The notes under the pieces are model-generated. The model worked only from the letters and a program-made list of their open reading frames with translations, was not told the origin of the DNA and did no database searches. The position numbers and the translations under genes are program-made. Shown here piece after piece: positions 37-40,971 of a DNA stretch of 41,386 nt (position 1 is its first letter; every line of letters begins with the position of its first letter). The stretch comes from Candidatus Zixiibacteriota bacterium (GTDB lineage: Bacteria; RBG-13-66-14; B26-G2; WVWN01): NCBI GenBank assembly GCA_030613505.1, contig JAUWLW010000003.1, positions 1 to 41,386 of the forward strand, given 5' to 3'.

Positions 37-828
37 ATGAAGAAAACAGTTGTTATCATCTTAGCACTGGCCTTAGCCGCCGGGACCGCGTTCGCGGCCC
101 TGGGCACAATAGTCGCATCTTGGCCCTCGCCTGCGAATTACCCCATCGCCGCGGCGCGACCGAACAACGCGGCGTATTTTTGGCTCTACTGCAACACCTC
201 GCCCTACAGGATCTGGCAGGTCAACGCCGAAACTGGCTCTATAGTCACCTCCTACGTATCGCCGTTCACCAGCGCCACCCGCGGCCTTTCGTACAACTAC
301 AACGGCGGCGGCGGCTTGCCCAGCGGCAGCTACCTCTGGATAGGCAATTACTCCACCGACCGCATCTACCGCTGCAACTACGGCACCGGTAGCATCTACG
401 CCTCCATCCCGGCGAACCACGACATGTACGGCGGCCTCGCCGTTATGGCGACCGCCGACGGGGGCGCGGCCCCGACGCACATGCTGTCCTCCGACAGCTC
501 CCCCGCCATGACCTGGCGCCAGCACTTAACCACCGGCAGTATTTACAACTCGTTTGCGACCACGGGCGTCTACGACATCGCCTGGGACTGGCGCAATAAA
601 CTCGTCTGGCACAGGAACGGCAGCACCATATACGGGCGGACCACTACCGGTTCCGTCCAGGCGTCGTTCTCGTTCACGCGCGGCCCGGCGCTGGCGTTCT
701 CTTACTTCGGCCAGTACCTCTGGCTGGGTTCGACCACCGGCTACCACCGCATCTTCAAGATCCACTGCCCCATCAACGTCTCCGTCACGCCCACGTCGGT
801 GGGTAAAGTCAAGGCGATATTCAAGTAA
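37..828 (+). CDS. Secreted beta-propeller-like protein with C-terminal VKAxF[KR] tag
   Basis: 263 residues, function unknown. Residues 1-20 form a signal peptide (MKK, hydrophobic core, AFA cleavage site), so the protein leaves the cytoplasm. The body carries four repeats of a [T]-G-S-[IV]-x-x-S-[FYW] unit (TGSIVTSY, TGSIYASI, TGSIYNSF, TGSVQASF), each after an aromatic-rich stretch such as LWIGNYSTDRIY. This is the look of a WD/NHL-like beta-propeller; that fold is inferred. The last 14 residues, VTPTSVGKVKAIFK, match the ends of the proteins at 2099-2872 and 18804-19550. The body is clearly paralogous to 2099-2872 (shared LW-G, DRIY and AWD-RN segments). An AGGAGG ribosome site at 23-28 sets the start; the promoter lies outside the window. 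A hairpin terminator follows at 851-877, so this is probably the end of its transcript. Confidence 0.85.
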   Translation: MKKTVVIILALALAAGTAFAALGTIVASWPSPANYPIAAARPNNAAYFWLYCNTSPYRIWQVNAETGSIVTSYVSPFTSATRGLSYNYNGGGGLPSGSYLWIGNYSTDRIYRCNYGTGSIYASIPANHDMYGGLAVMATADGGAAPTHMLSSDSSPAMTWRQHLTTGSIYNSFATTGVYDIAWDWRNKLVWHRNGSTIYGRTTTGSVQASFSFTRGPALAFSYFGQYLWLGSTTGYHRIFKIHCPINVSVTPTSVGKVKAIFK

Positions 829-850
829 CTGGAAACAACGTGCCTAAAGG

Positions 851-877
851 AGCCGCCCCTCCCGGGCGGCTTCTTTT
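851..877 (+). terminator. Rho-independent terminator after first propeller gene
   Basis: Perfect 8-bp stem AGCCGCCC / GGGCGGCT (851-858 with 864-871), 5-base loop and a T-rich tail (TCTTTTT). The same stem sequence is used at 1921-1946. Confidence 0.85.
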
Positions 878-996
878 TCACGGTGAAAAGGACCGGGTAC
901 GCGGACGTTGGTCTGTAAAAGGCCGGCTACCCGGCGGAGAGAAGTAGGCAAAAGAGGCCGAACGCAAAGCCGGCCGTGGACGACCGTAGGAAACGA

Positions 997-1025
997 TTGA
1001 ACCCCGGCCGATAGTTTTGTAATAT
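997..1025 (+). promoter_or_regulatory. Sigma70-type promoter for the tandem small secreted proteins
   Basis: TTGAAC (997-1002) and TAATAT (1020-1025) are separated by exactly 17 bases, about 35 bases upstream of the start codon at 1060. Visual match only. Confidence 0.6.
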
Positions 1026-1059
1026 GTGCCGTAATAACGACCGCCCAAGGAGGTGGCCG

Positions 1060-1452
1060 ATGAGGACCTTAATATTATGTCTATTGGTAATGGCGCTTGG
1101 GCTCGCGTCGACGGCGGCCGACGACGTCGCGGGCGAATATACCGGCTTCGGCAAACAGCCCTATAGCGGCCAGCGGTACGCCTGTGAGGTAAACATAACC
1201 AAAACGGGGGACGTATATAAAATTCTTTGGTCCTTCGAAGACGAGTTCGGTTACGACGGCGTAGGCATCGTAAAGGACGGACGCCTGTGCGTGGGGTACG
1301 CGGCCCACGTCGGATACGGCGTAGCGCTATATAAAATCGAAGCCGACGGCGTGTTGGACGGCGTCTTCGGCCTGCCCGGCTTCAAGGAAACGGGAAGCGA
1401 AAAACTATATCCGGAAGAGAGCAACCGGGCCGGAGGTGAGGCCAGTGAATAA
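1060..1452 (+). CDS. Small secreted protein, first of a tandem paralogous pair
   Basis: 130 residues, function unknown. The chosen ATG at 1060 has an ideal AAGGAGG at 1048-1054 and begins directly with a signal peptide (MRTLILCLLVMALGLASTAA); an upstream in-frame ATG at 1024 would sit inside the promoter -10 element and spoil the signal peptide. The mature part has the pattern GEYTGFG, YACEV-I, G-VYKI-W, GVGI, G-L-VGY, Y-I-ADG-LDG, ending TGSEKL. The next gene has the same pattern, so the two arose by duplication. The pattern resembles a widespread small secreted beta-domain of unknown function; I cannot name the family. The stop overlaps the next gene's start by 8 bases, so translation is coupled. 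Confidence 0.75.
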   Translation: MRTLILCLLVMALGLASTAADDVAGEYTGFGKQPYSGQRYACEVNITKTGDVYKILWSFEDEFGYDGVGIVKDGRLCVGYAAHVGYGVALYKIEADGVLDGVFGLPGFKETGSEKLYPEESNRAGGEASE

Positions 1453-1879
1453 AAAGTTCTGCTTAGTTCTTATGGTTGCGGCCTTAGCCGCGGTAATCGC
1501 GTCTTGCCGGAAACCCGCCGAGGAGATAAAGGGCCCGGAGACGGCCGCGTCCGAAACCTCCGCTGAAACGGCGGCCAACGTGATATTGGAAGGTATATAC
1601 GTAGGCGGCGGCGCCGACGCCGACGGCAACGCCTACACCTGCGAAGTCGAAATAACGCCGGCTCGGAACGTGTATTGGGTTACTTACAGCGTCGGCGACA
1701 GAATCCCCTACCCCGGCGTCGGCCTAAGGCGCGGCGACCTATTCGTCGTCGGCTATCGGGACGACCGGGAGGTATACGGCGTCGTCGCGTACACGATAAA
1801 ACCGGACGGCTCGCTCGAGGGAATCTCCGCCGACCAGGACAGCACGAAAACCGGCACGGAGACGTTGAGGAGAAGATAA
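1445..1879 (+). CDS. Small lipoprotein, second of a tandem paralogous pair
   Basis: 144 residues, function unknown. The GTG at 1445 is preferred to the in-frame GTG at 1436, because 1436 falls within the GGAGG ribosome site (1432-1436). The N-terminus is a lipoprotein signal: hydrophobic stretch then lipobox IASC, giving a lipidated Cys near residue 20. A short Ala/Glu/Thr linker leads to the same domain as in the upstream gene: GIYVGGG, YTCEVEI, VYWVTYS, GVGL, L-VVGY, YGVVAYTI-PDGSLEG, and a TGTETL ending. The upstream copy lacks the lipobox Cys, so one paralogue is predicted to be soluble in the periplasm or secreted and the other membrane-anchored. It overlaps the upstream gene by 8 bases and is followed by a terminator. 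Confidence 0.75.
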   Translation: MNKKFCLVLMVAALAAVIASCRKPAEEIKGPETAASETSAETAANVILEGIYVGGGADADGNAYTCEVEITPARNVYWVTYSVGDRIPYPGVGLRRGDLFVVGYRDDREVYGVVAYTIKPDGSLEGISADQDSTKTGTETLRRR

Positions 1880-1914
1880 GCCTCGCGAATTATCGGTATA
1901 AGCTTATTTCCAAA

Positions 1915-1946
1915 GAAAAAAAGCCGCCCCGGAGGGCGGCTTTTTT
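1915..1946 (+). terminator. Rho-independent terminator after lipoprotein pair
   Basis: Stem AAGCCGCCC / GGGCGGCTT (1921-1929 with 1934-1942), 4-base loop, preceded by A-rich and followed by T-rich sequence, so it may work in both directions. Confidence 0.9.
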
Positions 1947-1985
1947 CCGTTTGGAGAGAACGCGCTAAATAATCCGCCGGTAAAT

Positions 1986-2014
1986 TTGACTCAGGCCGAT
2001 TAATGCGCTATATT
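1986..2014 (+). promoter_or_regulatory. Sigma70-type promoter for second propeller gene
   Basis: TTGACT (1986-1991), 17-base spacer, TATATT (2009-2014). The leader to the start codon at 2099 is about 80 bases. A second TATAAT at 2061-2066 has no convincing -35 partner. Confidence 0.65.
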
Positions 2015-2098
2015 CTTAATGTGAAGCTTTAATAAATACGACGAAAACGTCACCTCCGACTATAATACGGGCGAAGCCCGAGAGGAGGTAAACTTCTT

Positions 2099-2872
2099 AT
2101 GAAACGCTTGGCGTTTATTTTAACGGCGCTGGTAATTATCGCCGGTTCTACCTCCCTGGCGCGTTTGGGCGACGTAAAGAGATCCTTCCCGGCGCCGGGC
2201 AACCAGGTCCGCGGCATGGCCCGCTCGACCATACGTTTGTTCGTAATCGATTACGGGAGCGCCACTAGGGTCTATCGCTTGTCCCCCGTCACCGGGTCCT
2301 CGTACGGCTCGTGGACCACATCTTTCAGCAATAAATGCTCCGGCCTCGCATTCTCCGACGGCGGCGTCCTCTGGATAGGCTGCGACGGCGAAGACCGCGT
2401 CTATAAATGCAAAGCCCTTACGGGGAGCGTTTATTACCACTGGAACGCCGGCCACCAACCCTACGGCGTAGCGCCGTTTTGCAATTCCGACGGCGGCATC
2501 GGCACCACCGCCATCTTCACCTCCGACTCCGCGCCGTCGTTCTGTTGGCGCCACAATATGACAAGCGGCAGCATTCTCTCGTCCTTTGGGATGGCGAGCG
2601 CAAGCTCCTTCGACATAGCCTGGGACCAGCGCAACAACCTCATATGGAAAGGCTCCCTCCCGAACGTGGTCTACGGGTACAATACCGCCGGTTCCGTCGC
2701 GGCTTCGTTCACCGTGCCCGGCCACTCCCCCCGCGGCCTGGCGTACTACAACCAGTACCTCTGGGTCGGATGCGACGCCAACGACCGCATCTACCAGGTC
2801 CATTGCCCGGGCGACATCACGTCCGACGTTTCGCCCGCTTCCTTCGGCGAAGTTAAAGCTTTATTCCGTTAA
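2099..2872 (+). CDS. Secreted beta-propeller-like protein with C-terminal VKAxFR tag, paralogue of 37-828
   Basis: 257 residues, function unknown. Signal peptide at residues 1-21 (MKRLAFILTALVIIAGSTSLA). Repeats of a G-S-x-x-x-S-[FW] unit (TGSSYGSW, TGSVYYHW, SGSILSSF, AGSVAASF) alternate with LWIGCDGEDRVY and LWVGCDANDRIY strands, giving at least four blade-like units. This and the collinear AWD-RNN-IW region show common ancestry with 37-828. Both also have an HCP triplet about 20 residues before the C-terminus. The final 14 residues, VSPASFGEVKALFR, form the tag shared with 37-828 and 18804-19550. The start has a GAGGAGGT ribosome site at 2081-2088. It is a single-gene transcript with its own promoter and terminator. 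Extracellular or surface location is inferred from the signal peptide only. Confidence 0.85.
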   Translation: MKRLAFILTALVIIAGSTSLARLGDVKRSFPAPGNQVRGMARSTIRLFVIDYGSATRVYRLSPVTGSSYGSWTTSFSNKCSGLAFSDGGVLWIGCDGEDRVYKCKALTGSVYYHWNAGHQPYGVAPFCNSDGGIGTTAIFTSDSAPSFCWRHNMTSGSILSSFGMASASSFDIAWDQRNNLIWKGSLPNVVYGYNTAGSVAASFTVPGHSPRGLAYYNQYLWVGCDANDRIYQVHCPGDITSDVSPASFGEVKALFR

Positions 2873-6951: not shown

Positions 6952-8286
6952 TTAGCCGGCGTTTTCTTTGTTAGGATCTTTATCGACCAGACACGCTTTG
7001 AATTCGCCCTCCGCGACGACTTTGTTGCCGACGAACGCCTCGCCCCGCATTACGGCAATTTTCCCTTTGAATTTCAAAGGAACGAGTTTAAATACGACCT
7101 GGTCGCCGGGGACTACCGGCTGCCGAAACTTAACCTTATCTATTCCCATGAAGTAGATAAGCGTGTTCGCCGGGTCTTCGACGGTCTGCATAAGCAGCAC
7201 GCCGCCGACTTGCGCCATAGCCTCCACAATTAATACCCCCGGCATCACGGGCGCCCCGGGAAAATGGCCGGCAAAGAACGGCTCGTTGAAAGTAACGTTT
7301 TTCAAACCCACGACGTACTCGCCCGGGCGGTAATCGACGATGCGGTCGACAAGTAAGAACGGATACCGGTGCGGCAGGTACTTCATTATCTCGCCGATAT
7401 CGTAAAGTGTCTTCGCGGGGTCGAACTTCGGCGCACGGCTTCTCTCCTCCATATACTTCTTCACGCTCCTTATCATACCGACGTTGACGGCGTGGCCGGA
7501 ACGCATCGCGATGATATGTCCTCTGAAGCGAGCGCCGAAAAGCGCAAGGTCGCCCATTAAATCCAGAATCTTATGCCGCACCGGCTCGTCGTCAAAGCGA
7601 AGGCCGTCCTCGTTGAGCGGGCCGTTGTCTCCCACGACGACGGCGCACTCCAAAGTACCCCCCTTTATCAACCCGGCGCTGCGAAGCATTTCGATTTCGC
7701 TCTCCAAGGCGAACGTCCGCGCGGGCGCTATCTCTTCTACGAAGTTATCCTCCCCCACGTCGAAAGTATAGAATTGGGATTTTAAGTACGGGTGTTCGAA
7801 CTTAATCGTGAAAGAGATCCGGAGGTTGTCCTCGGGGACGATGGTCATCTCGGCGCCGTCTTGCTTGTAGTCAAAAGGTTTATCCAATACGATCAACCGG
7901 CACGGTTCGTCCTGTTCTACGATCCCGGCGTCTAGAAGCGCCCGCGCGAATACGGCGCTCGAGCCGTCCGTCGCCGGCGGCTCGGGCCCGTCTATCTCGA
8001 CCAGGAGGTTATCGACGCCCAACCCGGTGGCCGCGGCGCACAGGTGTTCGACGGTGTAGACCGTTACGCCGTCTTCCGTCAACGTCGTCCCCCGGCTCGC
8101 CCCCGTAACGTTCTCGACGCGCGCGCAAACGCGCGCCCTACCGTCGAGGTCGACCCGGTCGAATACCACGCCCGTATTCGGCGGCGCCGGTTTAAACGTC
8201 ACGCGCGCCGGCTCGCCGGTATGAAGGCCGACGCCCTCGAGCGATACTTCTTTCGTAATGGTTCTCTGTTTCTCTTCGATTAACAT
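6952..8286 (-). CDS. lpxC-fabZ: LpxC-FabZ fusion: UDP-3-O-acyl-GlcNAc deacetylase plus 3-hydroxyacyl-ACP dehydratase
   Basis: 444 residues joining two enzymes. Residues 1-285 are LpxC, the zinc deacetylase of the committed lipid A step: zinc ligands VEHLCAA (His81), HKILD (His238, Asp242) and the general acid/base region SGHAVN (His265). Residues 295-444 are Fab[13 protein letters not shown], catalytic [11 protein letters not shown] (His341) and VEAMAQVGG (Glu355). FabZ competes with LpxA for 3-hydroxyacyl-ACP, so a fusion ties fatty acid elongation and lipid A synthesis to one polypeptide level. Such fusions are known in Bacteroidota and related groups. The genes flank as lpxD upstream and lpxA downstream, 9 and 108 bases away. 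All catalytic residues are intact. Confidence 0.97.
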
Positions 8287-9924: not shown

Positions 9925-11148
9925 CTAATCCTCGCGGCCTCGTTTCCCGAGCCACGCTTCCAGACCCACGATCGACAAGTAAAAGTCGAACATCTCCTCT
10001 TTCAACTCGCGGGACGGCGAATCGCCCCGACGGCTATATTCCAACGCGACATCGAGTCGACTGTTCTCGTTGTTTCTGAACAGGTATCCCGCACCCACCG
10101 CTACACCCGTTTTGGCGAATTCGCCGTGCTCGGTAGAATACCAAGGCACGTACGACACGCCGGCACGGAAAGGCATCCGCCACAGGAAGAAAGATTTCCG
10201 AGCCGCCGTCAACCGCCCTTCGGCGCCGGCGTGAAACTCGACGGTATCGCGATAACCCAAACCCTCGCCGTCGACGGCAAACCGCGACCACGCCGTATAG
10301 CGCACGTCCGCGGCAAACCGGCCGCGCGGGCCGACGACGTACGCCGCCCCCAATCCCGCCGACCACGGCATCGCGAACCGGTGATCTTCCTCGTACTGCG
10401 TAGCGTACTCCGTAAAAACTGTTTCGTGCACGCGGTGGGTGCTGAATACCTCCAACTGCGCGCCCACCGAGAACTTATCCGTTACTAAATAGCCAGCCCC
10501 CAGAGCCCCCTTTACGCCTTTATATGCCGCCTCCAGGGTCTCCTCGATGCGTGAATAACCCTTTTCTTTGAATTCCTTGGTATATATTTCCTTGGGCGCG
10601 CCGAAGTCGTAGCCGGCAACGCCGCCCACGTACCACCGTTCGCCAAGGCGGCCCGCCAACCCCGCCGAAAACGAATAGACGGACCCGGTACCCTTGCGCC
10701 GACTAGTCCCCACAACCACGCCTTCGTATTCGAGCGGCCTCGTCAATTCGTAATTCTGGTTGAGCTCCTGGCGCAAGGCAAGCGACAGGGCGAGTGAACT
10801 CGACACCGGTATCGCCAATTCCGCCCGAGGTATGTCGTACGTAATTTCTACGCTCCTCCCCGCCGGCGTCTCGTACGAGTTGTACCCCCGGTACAAGGTG
10901 ACGCTAAAAACCGCACGCCCGTACGAAGCCGGTACCGCCGGGTTCGCGCCGTTAACGTTCGAACCGTCGAATAGACCTAACGCCGCGCCCCCCATACCGA
11001 CCGCGCGCGCGTCAAGGTCTATACCGGGCTCTCCCGGCGTACCCGCAGCCAAAATCGTATTGGCCAACGCCGGGCAAGCGACGAGTGCGAGCGCCGCCGA
11101 CGCAATAAGTACGATATATAATAACATCCTTTTCGAATCGGCCGCCAC
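9925..11148 (-). CDS. PorV/FadL-like outer membrane beta-barrel protein
   Basis: About 407 residues. The GTG at 11148 has GGAG at 11157-11160 with 8-base spacing and gives a good signal peptide (SKRMLLYIVLIASAALALVACPALA); the ATG at 11127 lacks a ribosome site. The mature start reads DLDARAVGMGGAALGLFDGSN--NPA, the hallmark of PorV/UPF0164-type barrels, which share a fold with FadL. The rest is alternating strands with many aromatic ends, consistent with a 14-strand barrel. PorV-type proteins in Bacteroidota shuttle type IX secretion substrates by binding their C-terminal domain; whether this one does is open. The gene overlaps the stop of the upstream lipoprotein gene's coding region by no more than a few bases and is co-transcribed with it and with ompH/skp. 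Confidence 0.75.
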   Translation of the reverse strand: MAADSKRMLLYIVLIASAALALVACPALANTILAAGTPGEPGIDLDARAVGMGGAALGLFDGSNVNGANPAVPASYGRAVFSVTLYRGYNSYETPAGRSVEITYDIPRAELAIPVSSSLALSLALRQELNQNYELTRPLEYEGVVVGTSRRKGTGSVYSFSAGLAGRLGERWYVGGVAGYDFGAPKEIYTKEFKEKGYSRIEETLEAAYKGVKGALGAGYLVTDKFSVGAQLEVFSTHRVHETVFTEYATQYEEDHRFAMPWSAGLGAAYVVGPRGRFAADVRYTAWSRFAVDGEGLGYRDTVEFHAGAEGRLTAARKSFFLWRMPFRAGVSYVPWYSTEHGEFAKTGVAVGAGYLFRNNENSRLDVALEYSRRGDSPSRELKEEMFDFYLSIVGLEAWLGKRGRED

Positions 11149-11153
11149 TATCA

Positions 11154-12467
11154 CTACTCCGTCGGCGCGTACCACGGTTCCGGCGGCAACGTATACTCGA
11201 TCTCCAGGAACGGTCTCCGGGCCGGGTCGCCGTTGTCTTTGGCCGCGAAACGTGGGAAAGCCTGCGCCGTGCTCTCGTCGGGCGCTTTTATGACGAGGCC
11301 GTAGTTGGGGTGCTTACCGGAGATCCACTCTTGGACGAGGGAGTTAACGTATAGGTCCACGTAACCCGGCGGTTCTTTCATAAACTCGCGGTCAATATAA
11401 GCGTAGTTATCGTGGAACTTCTGGAGCTCGAGTACATCCTGCTTCGCGCCCTCCTCGAACGCGGCAGTCAAGCGGTACACGGCGATACGAACGCGTTCGT
11501 CCCTGGCGGCAGGTAGATAAAAAAGGCGGAGCCGGGCCCGGGCCACCGACGCCGTCGCCGGGATACCGGTAGCAGCCGGTGAAAGGTTAAAATATAGCAA
11601 CACGCGGCGGGCGTAGCCGTTAAAAGAGCCGAAATCTAAGAACTCGTCGTAGCCGTGAACCTCGCCGCCGCCGAATTCGCCGCCGTACTCCGTTATGAAA
11701 CAATCCTTTTCGGGTAAAAGGACGCGATAAACTTTCTCGCCCTCGTCGTCTACGTAGGCGATCTCGAGGCGGGGCGCGTTAACCTTGCTGTACTGGTTGG
11801 TGGAGTAAAATTCCTTTATGCCCGCCCCAGCCGACTCCTCCTCGTCCTTCAACTTTAAAACGACGCCGTAATTACGGTACGGGTTAGCAAGCCACTCCAG
11901 CCCCAGCGCGGTAACGTCGAAGTTTACGTACTGGCGCTGGTACGAAGGTCGACCGATGACGGCATCGGCCACGGCGGGCCCATAGTCGCCGCCCTCTACG
12001 CTCCAATTCTCCTTGCGGCTCGCCCGCCACCACGTCGCGCGGTCCTCGTCGAAGTCGCGCCGGAGCGGCCGTACTTCGATAGTTACGTCGCCCTCGGCGT
12101 AAATATCGTCGTTCAAGCTGCCTGAAACGCGAAGATACGGCAAACTTAGGAACACGCCGCGGATTTTACTAATGGATACCTCTTTCGGAACGTCCCCAAC
12201 GTCGAAGTGTAAAAGGGTGCGGCTCCGAAACCGGTCGGGCGCGCCGTAACTCCCGACGGCCAGACGGTAATGCCGGCCGGTGGGGGCAAAGATGTCGTAA
12301 AAAGTGTCGCGCCACCCGACGTCGGCGGGATATAACGTTACTTTCTTAACCGGCCGATCCGGCGGTTGAAACCCTACCGGGTCGCTGGTAGGAGCGCCGC
12401 ACGACAACGCGACGAGTATACCCGCCGCCCAAAAAAGGCGGCGCGAAATTGAACTACCTTTCGTCAT
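11154..12467 (-). CDS. DNRLRE-domain lipoprotein
   Basis: 437 residues. Lipoprotein signal with lipobox ALSC (lipidated Cys about residue 23) followed by a short GAPTSDP linker. Two successive beta-sandwich units of the DNRLRE type are seen: unit 1 (about 45-235) has RSRTLLHFDV, YVNFDVTALGLEWL, NYGVVLKLKDE and LEIAYVD; unit 2 (about 255-430) has YARRVLLYFNLS, ARARLRLFYL, VDLYVNSLVQEWI, NYGLVIKAPDES and FLEIEYTL. These domains occur in surface proteins and often bind carbohydrates or pack against other domains; activity is unknown. It is the first gene of the envelope operon, with a promoter 46-73 bases upstream, and is followed at once by the PorV-like barrel, so a surface partnership is plausible. 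Confidence 0.82.
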   Translation of the reverse strand: MTKGSSISRRLFWAAGILVALSCGAPTSDPVGFQPPDRPVKKVTLYPADVGWRDTFYDIFAPTGRHYRLAVGSYGAPDRFRSRTLLHFDVGDVPKEVSISKIRGVFLSLPYLRVSGSLNDDIYAEGDVTIEVRPLRRDFDEDRATWWRASRKENWSVEGGDYGPAVADAVIGRPSYQRQYVNFDVTALGLEWLANPYRNYGVVLKLKDEEESAGAGIKEFYSTNQYSKVNAPRLEIAYVDDEGEKVYRVLLPEKDCFITEYGGEFGGGEVHGYDEFLDFGSFNGYARRVLLYFNLSPAATGIPATASVARARLRLFYLPAARDERVRIAVYRLTAAFEEGAKQDVLELQKFHDNYAYIDREFMKEPPGYVDLYVNSLVQEWISGKHPNYGLVIKAPDESTAQAFPRFAAKDNGDPARRPFLEIEYTLPPEPWYAPTE

Positions 12468-12612: not shown

Positions 12613-13545
12613 TTAACGGAAGTATTGTACCCAGCAGCAATAAGCGTCGACGACGTAAATAACGCACCGTTCGTTTATAGTTATACCGTACGGGTTAATA
12701 AACTCGCCCCTTCCAACGCCGCCGGAACCGAACTCCCCGACGAAACTCCCGTCCGACGTAAAATACTGGACGCGCCTGTTGCCGTTATCGACGACGAACA
12801 CGGTCCCGCCGTAGCCGACCGCGACCGCCATAGGCCCGTCAAACTCGCCGGGGCCGGAGCCGCTACTACCCCAACCGCCGAGGTAAGAACCGGTCGACGT
12901 GAAATATTGAACGCGGTCGTTCCCGGTATCGGCTACGTACACGTTACCGCGGGGCCCGAAGTTAATACCCAACGGCAACTGGAATTCGCCGGCCTCTTCG
13001 CCCCACGCGCCCCATCCTCCTATATACTTTCCCTCGGCGCCAAAATATTGTACGCGGCCGTCGTAATCTATTACATATACCGCCCCCCCTGGTGAAACGG
13101 CTACCGCCGCCGGCCCGACGAAGTGGCCTTCGCCTTCACCGTACGAACCCCAAGAACCTAACAAGCTACCCGCGCTGGTAAAATAAACGATGCGGTTCTT
13201 ACGCTGATCGCCGACATAGACGACGCCGTTCGGCGCAACGGCTATGCTCCTCGGTGACCACTCGTTGGGCAATAAATCCCATTTACCCAGGAAACTACCC
13301 GCCGGCGTAAAATATTGAACCCGGTAATTATACGTATCGGCTACGTAAACGTCGCCGTTAGGGGCAACGGCTACGCCGTACGGTTTGTAAAACTCGCCGT
13401 CGTCGTGTCCCGGGCAACCCCACCTGGCGATAAACGCCGGCACCTTGCCCTTGACGTCGCCGAGCGGCGTTTCCTCGGAACACGCCACAATAACGACGAC
13501 AGCGGCCACGGCCCCCAATTTAAGAAACGTAATTACTATTTTCAT
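12613..13545 (-). CDS. NHL-repeat beta-propeller lipoprotein
   Basis: 310 residues. Lipoprotein signal with lipobox IVAC (Cys at about 22). Six NHL repeats, each with the pattern P-G-[IV]-x-[VI]-x-x-x-G-x-[VI]-[YF]-V-x-D and N-R-[VI]-Q-Y-F, fill the mature protein, for example VAVAPNGDVYVADTYNYRVQYF; the final one ends at the C-terminus (VIYVVDAYCCWVQYF). Six blades should close a propeller with central-channel binding. Ligand unknown. It follows rocD by 22 bases with an AAAGGGGGG ribosome site, although no functional link to rocD is evident, and a strong terminator follows. Unlike the propeller-like proteins at 37-828 and 2099-2872 it lacks the C-terminal tag. Confidence 0.87.
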   Translation of the reverse strand: MKIVITFLKLGAVAAVVVIVACSEETPLGDVKGKVPAFIARWGCPGHDDGEFYKPYGVAVAPNGDVYVADTYNYRVQYFTPAGSFLGKWDLLPNEWSPRSIAVAPNGVVYVGDQRKNRIVYFTSAGSLLGSWGSYGEGEGHFVGPAAVAVSPGGAVYVIDYDGRVQYFGAEGKYIGGWGAWGEEAGEFQLPLGINFGPRGNVYVADTGNDRVQYFTSTGSYLGGWGSSGSGPGEFDGPMAVAVGYGGTVFVVDNGNRRVQYFTSDGSFVGEFGSGGVGRGEFINPYGITINERCVIYVVDAYCCWVQYFR

Positions 13546-18803: not shown

Positions 18804-19550
18804 TTACCGGTACATCGCCTTGACTTTGCCGAGCGAAGCGGGTTCGACGCCTACGTTATAGCCGTCCCACATGAAATTAAGGATGTTGGCGTAGAGTGTC
18901 TGCACGGAAACTAGTTTGCAGTGAATCTTGTAGCCGCTGATTACGCCGTGTTTGTCGGGCGCTACGCAAATCCCGGCCTGCCCGGGAGTCGACGTGGCGG
19001 TCCAGCCCGTTACCGCCGGGGTAGCGGTAGTGAGCGTTAATGGGTGGCCGGCGGTACCGACGCCCGCGTTGCCGTATGTCCAGCTGGTAATACCCTTGCA
19101 AATAGGGTGGCTTGCGACCCACGTGTAATGCGGTTTCGGCGGCATCGTTAAACGGCGCGTGCAAGTGACGCCCATTGCGCTTTTGATGGGGTTTTCGAGG
19201 CTGTAGTGCATACCCCAGTCGTTGAAGAAGAACGGCCCACGTTTCTTGTTGTACCAATCGGCCATAGCCTGGTAATCGGAAGTATTCAACGACCGATAGT
19301 TGTTGGTGGCATAGAGAGCCATATCCCAGGGCCCTCCGGTTTTCAAAGCCGAGACAAACGCGGAAATTTGGTTATCGGTGTACGACGTGACCGCGGATTT
19401 TGGGAAAGTAGTTTTTATGGTCGGGACGAAGTACGAGCCGTAGCCGCCCAATATGCCGTAACAGACGAGGATTTTACCAGGGTCCGCCGCCTGCGCCAAC
19501 GCCGCCGTGCCGCATAGCAACGCTACGGTAATTACGAAAATCTTCCTCAT
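18804..19550 (-). CDS. Secreted protein of unknown function with C-terminal VKAxYR tag
   Basis: 248 residues. Signal peptide at 1-22 (MRKIFVITVALLCGTAALAQA). The mature protein starts KILVCYGILGGYGSYF, then DMALYATNNYRSL, GPFFFNDWGMHYSL and a late HPLTLTTATPAVTGW; the order of strands suggests a Rossmann-like or class I amidotransferase-like fold, but no catalytic triad is evident, so no function is assigned. The body is unrelated to the propeller-like proteins near the left edge, yet its last 14 residues, VEPASLGKVKAMYR, are the same tag. Good AGGAGG 5 bases before the ATG. Its promoter (19602-19630) abuts the rnpB 3' end. Single-gene transcript. Confidence 0.85.
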   Translation of the reverse strand: MRKIFVITVALLCGTAALAQAADPGKILVCYGILGGYGSYFVPTIKTTFPKSAVTSYTDNQISAFVSALKTGGPWDMALYATNNYRSLNTSDYQAMADWYNKKRGPFFFNDWGMHYSLENPIKSAMGVTCTRRLTMPPKPHYTWVASHPICKGITSWTYGNAGVGTAGHPLTLTTATPAVTGWTATSTPGQAGICVAPDKHGVISGYKIHCKLVSVQTLYANILNFMWDGYNVGVEPASLGKVKAMYR

Positions 19551-34941: not shown

Positions 34942-35499
34942 CTAGATAAGTTTATCGAAAACTTCCTGGTAAGGGGCGGGAATAACGGCGGTCGCGACGA
35001 GCAGGCCGCGCTTCGCCGCTTCCGCGGCGCCCGCCGCTACCGCCGCAGCTACGGCCGCCGTCTCCCCCACCATGGTCACGAAACCTTTTCCGCCGATGCC
35101 GGTCCCGAGCCTAATTTCGACGAGCGTGACCGGCGCCGCTTTCACCGCGGCGTCCGCGGCCAACAGCGAGGAGGCTAGAGAGAACGTCTCCACGACCCCC
35201 AACGCGGCCTTCTCGGGCACGACCACCGTCCCGGCCGCGGCCGCCATAACTTGCTCGTGAACGTTAGGGATTACGAAGTCGTCGACGTAATGCCCTCGCC
35301 CCATTTCCTTGCCCGCGGCGACCGCCGATTTCACCGCGGCCACGGCCCCCGCGACGAGCCCTATATACTTCCCGGAGCACGACGTCCGCGACGCCAGGAG
35401 CCGCACCTCGGCTTCCTTAACCATCGCGTCCACCGCCTCGATGCCGCGGGCGATGGACGAGAACTCTACTAAGCCTATGGCCTCTTCGCGCGCCGCCAA
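34942..35499 (-). CDS. pduT: PduT-like tandem BMC-domain shell protein (BMC-T) with Fe-S pore
   Basis: 185 residues, two BMC domains (1-90 and 95-180; AIGLVEFSSIARGIEAVDAM and ALGVVETFSLASSLLAADAA). Shell trimer subunit. PduT carries a [4Fe-4S] cluster at the trimer axis through a Cys in the first domain; here Cys41 in RTSCSGKYIG is at that place. This is the shell electron port that pairs with PduS. The start is a TTG at 35499 with AAGGA 7 bases upstream; no better ATG gives the complete first strand. It follows the TPR gene with no gap. Confidence 0.9.
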   Translation of the reverse strand: MAAREEAIGLVEFSSIARGIEAVDAMVKEAEVRLLASRTSCSGKYIGLVAGAVAAVKSAVAAGKEMGRGHYVDDFVIPNVHEQVMAAAAGTVVVPEKAALGVVETFSLASSLLAADAAVKAAPVTLVEIRLGTGIGGKGFVTMVGETAAVAAAVAAGAAEAAKRGLLVATAVIPAPYQEVFDKLI

Positions 35500-39818: not shown

Positions 39819-40649
39819 TTATTGACTTTTGAGCAACTCTGGGAAGTATTTCCGCACCGCGTCCCGCGCGTACGGCGTAAGAATCGCCCCGGACAACGAC
39901 GGCACCGTCCCCTTGCGGTAGGCTTCAATTACATCCTCTTCCGTTATCAACGCCCGCTCGGGTCGGCGCGAAGCCGACTCACGAGCGGTGCGCGGCGCCG
40001 GAGGGTTTCCGACTACGACCGTCGCCACGTCACCCGTACTGGCGCCGCAGGCGTTCGCCTCGTCCCGGTCAACGTGTAGCTCCAACGCGGCGTTTTCGCT
40101 CACCCTCACCAAAACGTCGTCGAAGGTAACTCGCCGCAACGGCGTGCCCATTACGGCCGAGACGTCGGCGCCGTCGACGAAGCCGTAACGTTCGGCGTCG
40201 GCGGGCGTGGCGTGTAAATGCCGCCGCGCGACCACGCCTCCTTCCGGTAGGCGGACCACGCCCGCCGGCCCGGCCAGGACGACGGCAAAGCGTTCGCCGG
40301 CGCGTACGTCGCCGGGCGCGCCTAGCGTTTCCAGGTCGCTGGCCAGCAACTCCACCACCGTCTCCGGGCGCGTAGGCCCCACGACGCGTACGTTGGGGAC
40401 GGAAGCGCGTAGCCCCGCGACGGTGACGACCTCGCCGGCGCTGAATTGGCCCGGCTGGACGAGAGGCGCACGTACGGATAGTTCCGCGCCCGCGCCGAAG
40501 AGCGTTGCGAGGTCCCCGGGCGTCAAGTGTACGTGTCGGGCGGAAACGCCCACCTGCGCTTCGAACGTCCGGACGGCGTCGGCTCGCAATCGAGCTAAAA
40601 CCACCGAGGTCGCCGCCCGGACCAAAGCCTCTTGATCGTCGGCGGCCAT
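39819..40649 (-). CDS. pduL: PduL-type phosphate acyltransferase with C-terminal BMC-targeting-like tail
   Basis: 276 residues; ordinary PduL has about 210. Converts acyl-CoA and phosphate to acyl-phosphate and CoA within microcompartments. Zinc/active-site blocks: VSARHVHLTPGDL, GPTRPETVVELLASD, VARRHLHATPADAERYG and LHVDRDEANACG. Residues 1-25 form an amphipathic helix (EALVRAATSVVLARLRADA) of the encapsulation-peptide type. After the PduL core a Pro/Arg-rich linker (about 210-228) leads to a tail ALITEEDVIEAYRKGTVP then SGAILTPYARDAVRKYFPEL, which resembles the N-terminal part of EutQ and of other BMC proteins. Both ends may direct packaging. 16 bases from the BMC-H gene. Confidence 0.9.
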   Translation of the reverse strand: MAADDQEALVRAATSVVLARLRADAVRTFEAQVGVSARHVHLTPGDLATLFGAGAELSVRAPLVQPGQFSAGEVVTVAGLRASVPNVRVVGPTRPETVVELLASDLETLGAPGDVRAGERFAVVLAGPAGVVRLPEGGVVARRHLHATPADAERYGFVDGADVSAVMGTPLRRVTFDDVLVRVSENAALELHVDRDEANACGASTGDVATVVVGNPPAPRTARESASRRPERALITEEDVIEAYRKGTVPSLSGAILTPYARDAVRKYFPELLKSQ

Positions 40650-40665
40650 GAACCTTTATCCTGAA

Positions 40666-40971
40666 TTACGCCTTCTTGGCCGGTAGGACTTCCTCCGGCA
40701 ATATAAACTCTACCGCGTCGTCCGGGCGCGGGATTACATGGACCGAGACGAGTTCGCCGATCTTGGCGGCGGCTGCGGCGCCCGCTTCGGTCGCGGCCTT
40801 CACGGCCCCGGTCTCGCCGCGGACCATCACGCTCACGAGGCCTCCGCCGACGCGAACCTTATCCATGAGCCGCACGCTTGCAGCCTTCACCATCGCGTCC
40901 GCCGCTTCGATCGCCGCCACCACACCGCGGGTCTCGATCATCCCGAGAGCCATCTCCGTTCTGGCAGGCAT
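40666..40971 (-). CDS. BMC-H (PduA/EutM-like) hexameric shell protein
   Basis: 101 residues. Single BMC domain: [60 protein letters not shown] and [15 protein letters not shown], the strongest match to PduA/EutM/CcmK-type proteins. These hexamers tile the shell facets; the central pore is lined by the GGG loop, where PduA has GSG, so pore size and charge could differ. Start ATG 40971 with AAAGGAG upstream. It lies immediately after the partial membrane gene. Assignment to the family is firm. Confidence 0.96.

Follow-up and report, generated by a model that had tools for sequence, protein, structure and literature searches.

A short C-terminal tail shared by unrelated exported proteins in Coatesbacteria and other FCB-group candidate phyla, and its likely role in sorting

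The closest described systems are the C-terminal domains (CTDs) of type IX secretion, in which motif D (PxGxYVV) lies in the last 22 residues and is accompanied by motif E (KxxxK; PMC5445135). Reduced C-terminal signals are also accepted by the type IX system, as described for Prevotella intermedia (PMC11969387) and for HBP35 (PMC3120885, PMC5445135), and distinct CTD classes use distinct shuttles (PMC12618676). A separate group of short C-terminal tags (PEP-CTERM, GlyGly-CTERM and MYXO-CTERM) pairs a motif with a membrane helix and a basic tail, and is read by intramembrane sortases or proteases. Here we describe a shorter tail found in a window of 41,386 nucleotides, meaning the whole stretch of DNA that was analysed, which corresponds to contig C63 in a genome of 2.86 Mb and 93% completeness, whose phylum is taken as Coatesbacteria.

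Tagged proteins in the window

Three ORFs of the window terminate in the tail (Table 1). An earlier reading of the sequence alone had described these three endings, which are exactly as it gave them, and all three proteins carry Sec signal peptides. It had also held that the tag follows divergent bodies, which stands for the protein at 18804-19550, whose body showed no BLASTP link to the window propellers at 1e-4 after trimming of signal and tag. The two propellers are homologous to each other (40% identity), leaving only two independent body types within the window. Searches with the three proteins returned no real Pfam or NCBIfam match. The model of the 2099-2872 protein matched glutaminyl cyclase, NHL and YncE folds in the PDB, and a relative of the 18804-19550 protein with 52% identity is likewise tagged (L079:696-1421).

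Table 1 Coordinates of the tagged window proteins, their predicted signal peptides and their C-terminal tags
Feature	Position	Strand	Basis
Exported beta-propeller-like protein, 263 aa, tagged	37..828	+	ORF; 40% identity to the 2099-2872 protein
Predicted Sec signal peptide MKKTVVIILALALAAGTAFA	37..96	+	K/R n-region, hydrophobic core, AFA site; crude predictor
C-terminal tag VTPTSVGKVKAIFK plus stop	784..828	+	ORF; pattern searches
Exported beta-propeller protein, 257 aa, tagged	2099..2872	+	ORF; AlphaFold pLDDT 65; PDB propeller matches
Predicted Sec signal peptide MKRLAFILTALVIIAGSTSLA	2099..2161	+	Sequence; crude predictor
C-terminal tag VSPASFGEVKALFR plus stop	2828..2872	+	ORF, pattern search; residues 241-257 low-confidence in model
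Exported protein, 248 aa, tagged, unrelated to the propellers	18804..19550	-	ORF; BLASTP
Predicted Sec signal peptide MRKIFVITVALLCGTAALAQA	19488..19550	-	Sequence; crude predictor
C-terminal tag VEPASLGKVKAMYR plus stop	18804..18848	-	ORF; pattern search

Other genes of the window were noted in passing. An NHL propeller at 12613-13545 (minus strand) has a lipobox (VIVAC) and ends in VQYFR without the tag, unlike its tagged NHL paralogues, and lipobox-like signals also occur on the untagged exported proteins at 1436-1879 and 11154-12467. From its sequence, the gene at 6952-8286 (minus strand) looks like an LpxC-FabZ fusion, and those at 34942-35499 and 39819-40971 (minus strand) resemble BMC-shell and PduL genes, which suggests a bacterial microcompartment.

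Sequence, spread and carriers of the tag

The consensus tail of the window genome, V-x-P-[AT]-S-[LVF]-G-[RK]-V-K-A-[LI]-[FY]-[KR]-stop, spans about 14 residues and terminates approximately 117-128 genes, with no match for the reversed pattern. An unanchored search with the strict pattern V.P[AT]S.G[KE]VKA gave 13 matches genome-wide (reversed control, 0), and the described position flush with the stop held for 13/13. The stop-anchored form G-x-[VI]-[KR]-A-x-[FY]-x-stop found 117 matches (reversed control, 0) and a looser unanchored pattern 128 (control, 0); among 100 matches listed for the latter, the codon in the place of the stop began with TA or TG in 95, as judged from its first two bases. 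Tagged genes are scattered across dozens of contigs, frequently as tandem runs. Neither Pfam nor NCBIfam contains a model that matches the tag as a tag, in agreement with the expectation that it has no named family, and a literature search, with most subscription papers outside its reach, found no description of the motif or of secretion tags in these phyla, nor any experimental work on the tag in these bacteria.

Conservation in the window genome was 0.85 for V-14, 0.99 for P-12, 0.98 for S-10, 1.00 for G-8, 0.91 for K-5, 1.00 for A-4 and 0.88 for L-3; the other consensus positions are L/V/F-9, R/K-7, V/I-6, F/Y-2 and R/K-1. Across all lineages G-8, K-5 and A-4 are invariant or nearly so, an invariance partly imposed by the search patterns, and S/T-10, V/I-6 and F/Y-2 are conserved, which is too strict for a nonspecific tail. 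Other phyla carry a W variant, [TA]-[ST]-W-G-x-[IV]-K-A-x-[FY]-[RKQNH]-stop, in which W-9, G-8, K-5 and A-4 were demanded by the search pattern; at the pattern-free positions V-14 and E-13 are preferred and P-12 is not conserved. Overall, 179/227 tags end in K-x-x-x-[KR]-stop, and their periodicity clearly prefers neither helix nor strand.

Within the phylum of the window genome, 14/14 genomes examined contained the tag, with 1 to 128 matches each compared with 0-2 in controls. A scan of named genomes with the W form revealed, among the matches listed, records labelled Eisenbacteria, Krumholzibacteriota, Delongbacteria, Zixibacteria and Coatesbacteria, a handful named Gemmatimonadetes, Acetofilamentum or simply bacterium, and a single record assigned to Gammaproteobacteria. 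Such labels can be wrong: relatives of two records belong to minor phyla represented by 7 and 5 genomes, of which 7/7 and 4/5 were tag-positive. As a control, 4/299 Pseudomonadota genomes had one match each; three of these look random, and the fourth is the Gammaproteobacteria-labelled record (L202), a 3.2 kb contig that is probably misbinned, from a genome without SprA.

Signal peptides were found on 198/212 complete tagged ORFs (~93%) versus 247/672 untagged ORFs from the same loci (37%), taken from stretches around tag matches and scored with one crude start and signal rule for both sets; because this rule is lenient, the contrast counts rather than the absolute numbers. The remaining ~7% of tagged ORFs had no signal peptide by the crude predictor. 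After removal of signal and tag, the bodies formed 71 clusters at an E value of 1e-4, with Pfam matches to NHL, PD40, GDSL lipases, LTD (lamin-tail), right-handed beta-helix, MAM, cytochrome c7, CBM96 and CBM20, among others, and further family matches to pectate lyase and plastocyanin-like proteins, while many bodies had no family match at all. In one tagged Eisenbacteria family (L151, L154, L160 and L166) the signals are lipobox-like (VGLVGCSNSSGPS), so its members may be both tagged and lipidated.

Structure models place the tail outside the folded body. A tagged NHL propeller was modelled with a mean pLDDT of 90.6. Values exceed 90 over almost the entire stretch of residues 17-304, and only the signal peptide and the C-terminal 14 residues score less than 50, which identifies the tail as an appendix to the fold. 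The propeller model of the 2099-2872 protein (pLDDT 65) is likewise poor in the tail. Since the tag is a low-confidence helix in this weak model (2099-2869) but a coil in the strong NHL model, we claim no structure for it.

The sequence-only reading had taken the tag for a sorting or secretion signal, and its carriers neither fall into one homologous family nor, for the most part, lack signal peptides, nor does the tag lie away from the C terminus. With 71 body clusters, signal peptides on 198/212 ORFs and a C-terminal position, a role as a C-terminal sorting signal is well supported. It probably represents a new class of linear C-terminal peptides for secretion or surface sorting, present in several FCB candidate phyla, served by a receptor or shuttle of its own and outnumbering the classical type IX domains in this Coatesbacteria genome.

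Type IX machinery and competing explanations

SprA was detected in 34/35 tag-positive genomes tested (23/23 plus 11/12), with 32/35 over the curated cut-off, and in 0/14 control genomes; the tag genomes out of line were one with a weak SprA match only and one without SprA. In the window genome SprA lies on contig C76 (G000:C76:35796-44258, equivalent to L252:5797-14259) and is followed by two ExbB/TolQ-like and then two ExbD/TolR-like genes, which are candidates for a type IX motor replacing GldL/GldM. PorV-family proteins and a PorU-like sortase were each present in 10/10 genomes tested, the latter over cut-off in 5. The window genome has ten PorV-family matches, and its PorU-like gene (C8:1656-5228, below the curated cut-off) adjoins one of them (C8:5335-6225), a neighbour pair that recurs in G003, G017 and G019. 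Type A CTD proteins occur in 23/23 genomes tested, with 48 matches in the window genome. Together, SprA, PorV-family, PorU-like and type A CTD genes make a type IX system very likely in the window genome, where the new tag is a second and more numerous C-terminal signal beside type A CTDs. Their presence in the same genomes also shows that the comparison with type IX secretion had been apt.

Two further observations concern PorV-family genes. At L265:2-880 and L265:1311-3218, a tagged NHL gene lies immediately upstream of one of them (C83:1533-2360), which in this one case is a possible cognate shuttle. Within the window, a gene at 9925-11175 (minus strand), beside an OmpH-like gene, encodes an outer-membrane barrel whose resemblance to NCBIfam BamG (E 3.8e-36) stays under the cut-off and which is faintly similar to the PorV family.

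We propose that tagged proteins would cross the inner membrane via Sec, as the signal peptides seen in their sequences indicate, and would fold in the periplasm with the ~14-residue tail remaining free, as suggested by the structure model. A receptor would then bind the tail and take the protein through the outer membrane or place it on the cell surface, the likeliest candidate being the SprA translocon together with one of about ten PorV-family shuttle proteins. Known reduced signals and the precedent of type B CTDs with PorP/SprF shuttles lead us to propose that the tail may be a third, minimal type IX signal class beside type A and type B CTDs, delivered by a PorV-family shuttle to SprA. 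A short linear sorting signal, most likely read by type IX (SprA plus a PorV-type shuttle), is therefore our best explanation, and our confidence in it is evenly divided. Its link to type IX draws on co-occurrence and analogy, and recognition by SprA and PorV, any cleavage, PorU-dependent anchoring and the final location are inferred.

The co-occurrence of SprA and tag may merely reflect shared FCB-group ancestry, as descent of the tag-positive lineages from a common ancestor could by itself account for it. Alternatively, type IX would be only a fellow traveller of these lineages and the tag a sorting or anchoring signal read by a different system, be it a dedicated outer-membrane or surface receptor or a processing enzyme, an explanation that we regard as possible and hold tentatively. 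The tag is strictly conserved without any CTD motif, its ending differs from that of CTDs, and classical CTDs in 23/23 genomes mean that the type IX machine needs no second signal. Against such a system, the phyletic ranges of tag and SprA closely agree, and no alternative machinery came to light in passing.

The tail might instead be a signal for periplasmic handling, for example as the ligand of a PDZ protease or chaperone or as a processing site, with no part in outer-membrane transport. An aromatic and basic end flush with the carboxyl terminus would make a plausible C-terminal ligand, and the tail is disordered in the models; however, it is hard to see why over 100 exported proteins of one genome should be marked for degradation, and known degradation motifs are far less conserved than the tag, making this unlikely. 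A beta-signal for BAM insertion of outer-membrane proteins is highly improbable: an aromatic residue at -2 and a degree of alternation among the hydrophobic residues recall one, but the bodies are soluble (propellers, GDSL, cupredoxin, cytochrome) rather than beta-barrels and the tail ends in a basic instead of an aromatic residue. Finally, the notion that the tail is simply the final element of the propeller fold, passed down within a single large family, has practically no likelihood and is refuted: although the largest cluster (73 tagged proteins, among them the two window propellers and the NHL proteins) consists of propellers, seventy further clusters of unrelated folds carry the tag, the propeller is already whole in the model before the tag begins and the NHL lipoprotein at 12613-13545 is untagged.

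If our interpretation of a type IX sorting signal is true, sequence alone would suffice to define which proteins are exported or surface-located in several uncultured phyla, and more than 100 hypothetical proteins in such a genome would gain a name. It would also widen the range of type IX secretion, which the literature describes mainly from Bacteroidetes, to these phyla and provide a peptide signal for outer-membrane transport smaller than any known so far, which could serve as a display tag and help to establish what a type IX shuttle recognises.

Relation to described C-terminal signals

The tag had been described as shorter than type IX CTDs and different in sequence, which the profile and motif searches bear out. 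TIGR04183 gave no match to the three window proteins up to an E value of 5 and none below ~0.004 among representatives of the 71 tagged clusters, and motif D (PxGxY) was found in the last 40 residues of 0/227 tagged sequences. The tag does have the form of motif E (K-x-x-x-[KR]-stop), but not the Ig-like beta-sandwich, as judged from the confident NHL model; conversely, 0/8 classical CTDs of the window genome had a motif E-like KxxxK ending. Lacking the CTD fold, motif D and a TIGR04183 match, the tag is ruled out as a type A CTD.

Type A CTDs (TIGR04183, Por_Secre_tail) nevertheless resemble the tag in their C-terminal position on unrelated Sec-exported bodies, in numbering dozens per genome, in a basic residue at the end and in occurring in the same genomes. 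They differ in length (~70-100 residues, compared with ~14), in having an Ig-like fold, where the tag is disordered in models, and in containing motif D. The tag is also shorter than, and different in sequence from, both the short CTDs of P. intermedia (43-55 residues with motifs B, D and E; PMC11969387) and the minimal signal of HBP35 (22 residues with motifs D and E; PMC3120885, PMC5445135). PEP-CTERM, GlyGly-CTERM and MYXO-CTERM are, like the tag, short C-terminal homologies on many unrelated exported proteins; in contrast to them, the new tag has no hydrophobic or membrane helix and directly follows the folded body. Type B CTDs (TIGR04131), with 150-235 residues and five motifs, are unlike the short tag, but with their PorP/SprF shuttles (PMC12618676) they set the precedent for a second signal class that has a shuttle of its own.
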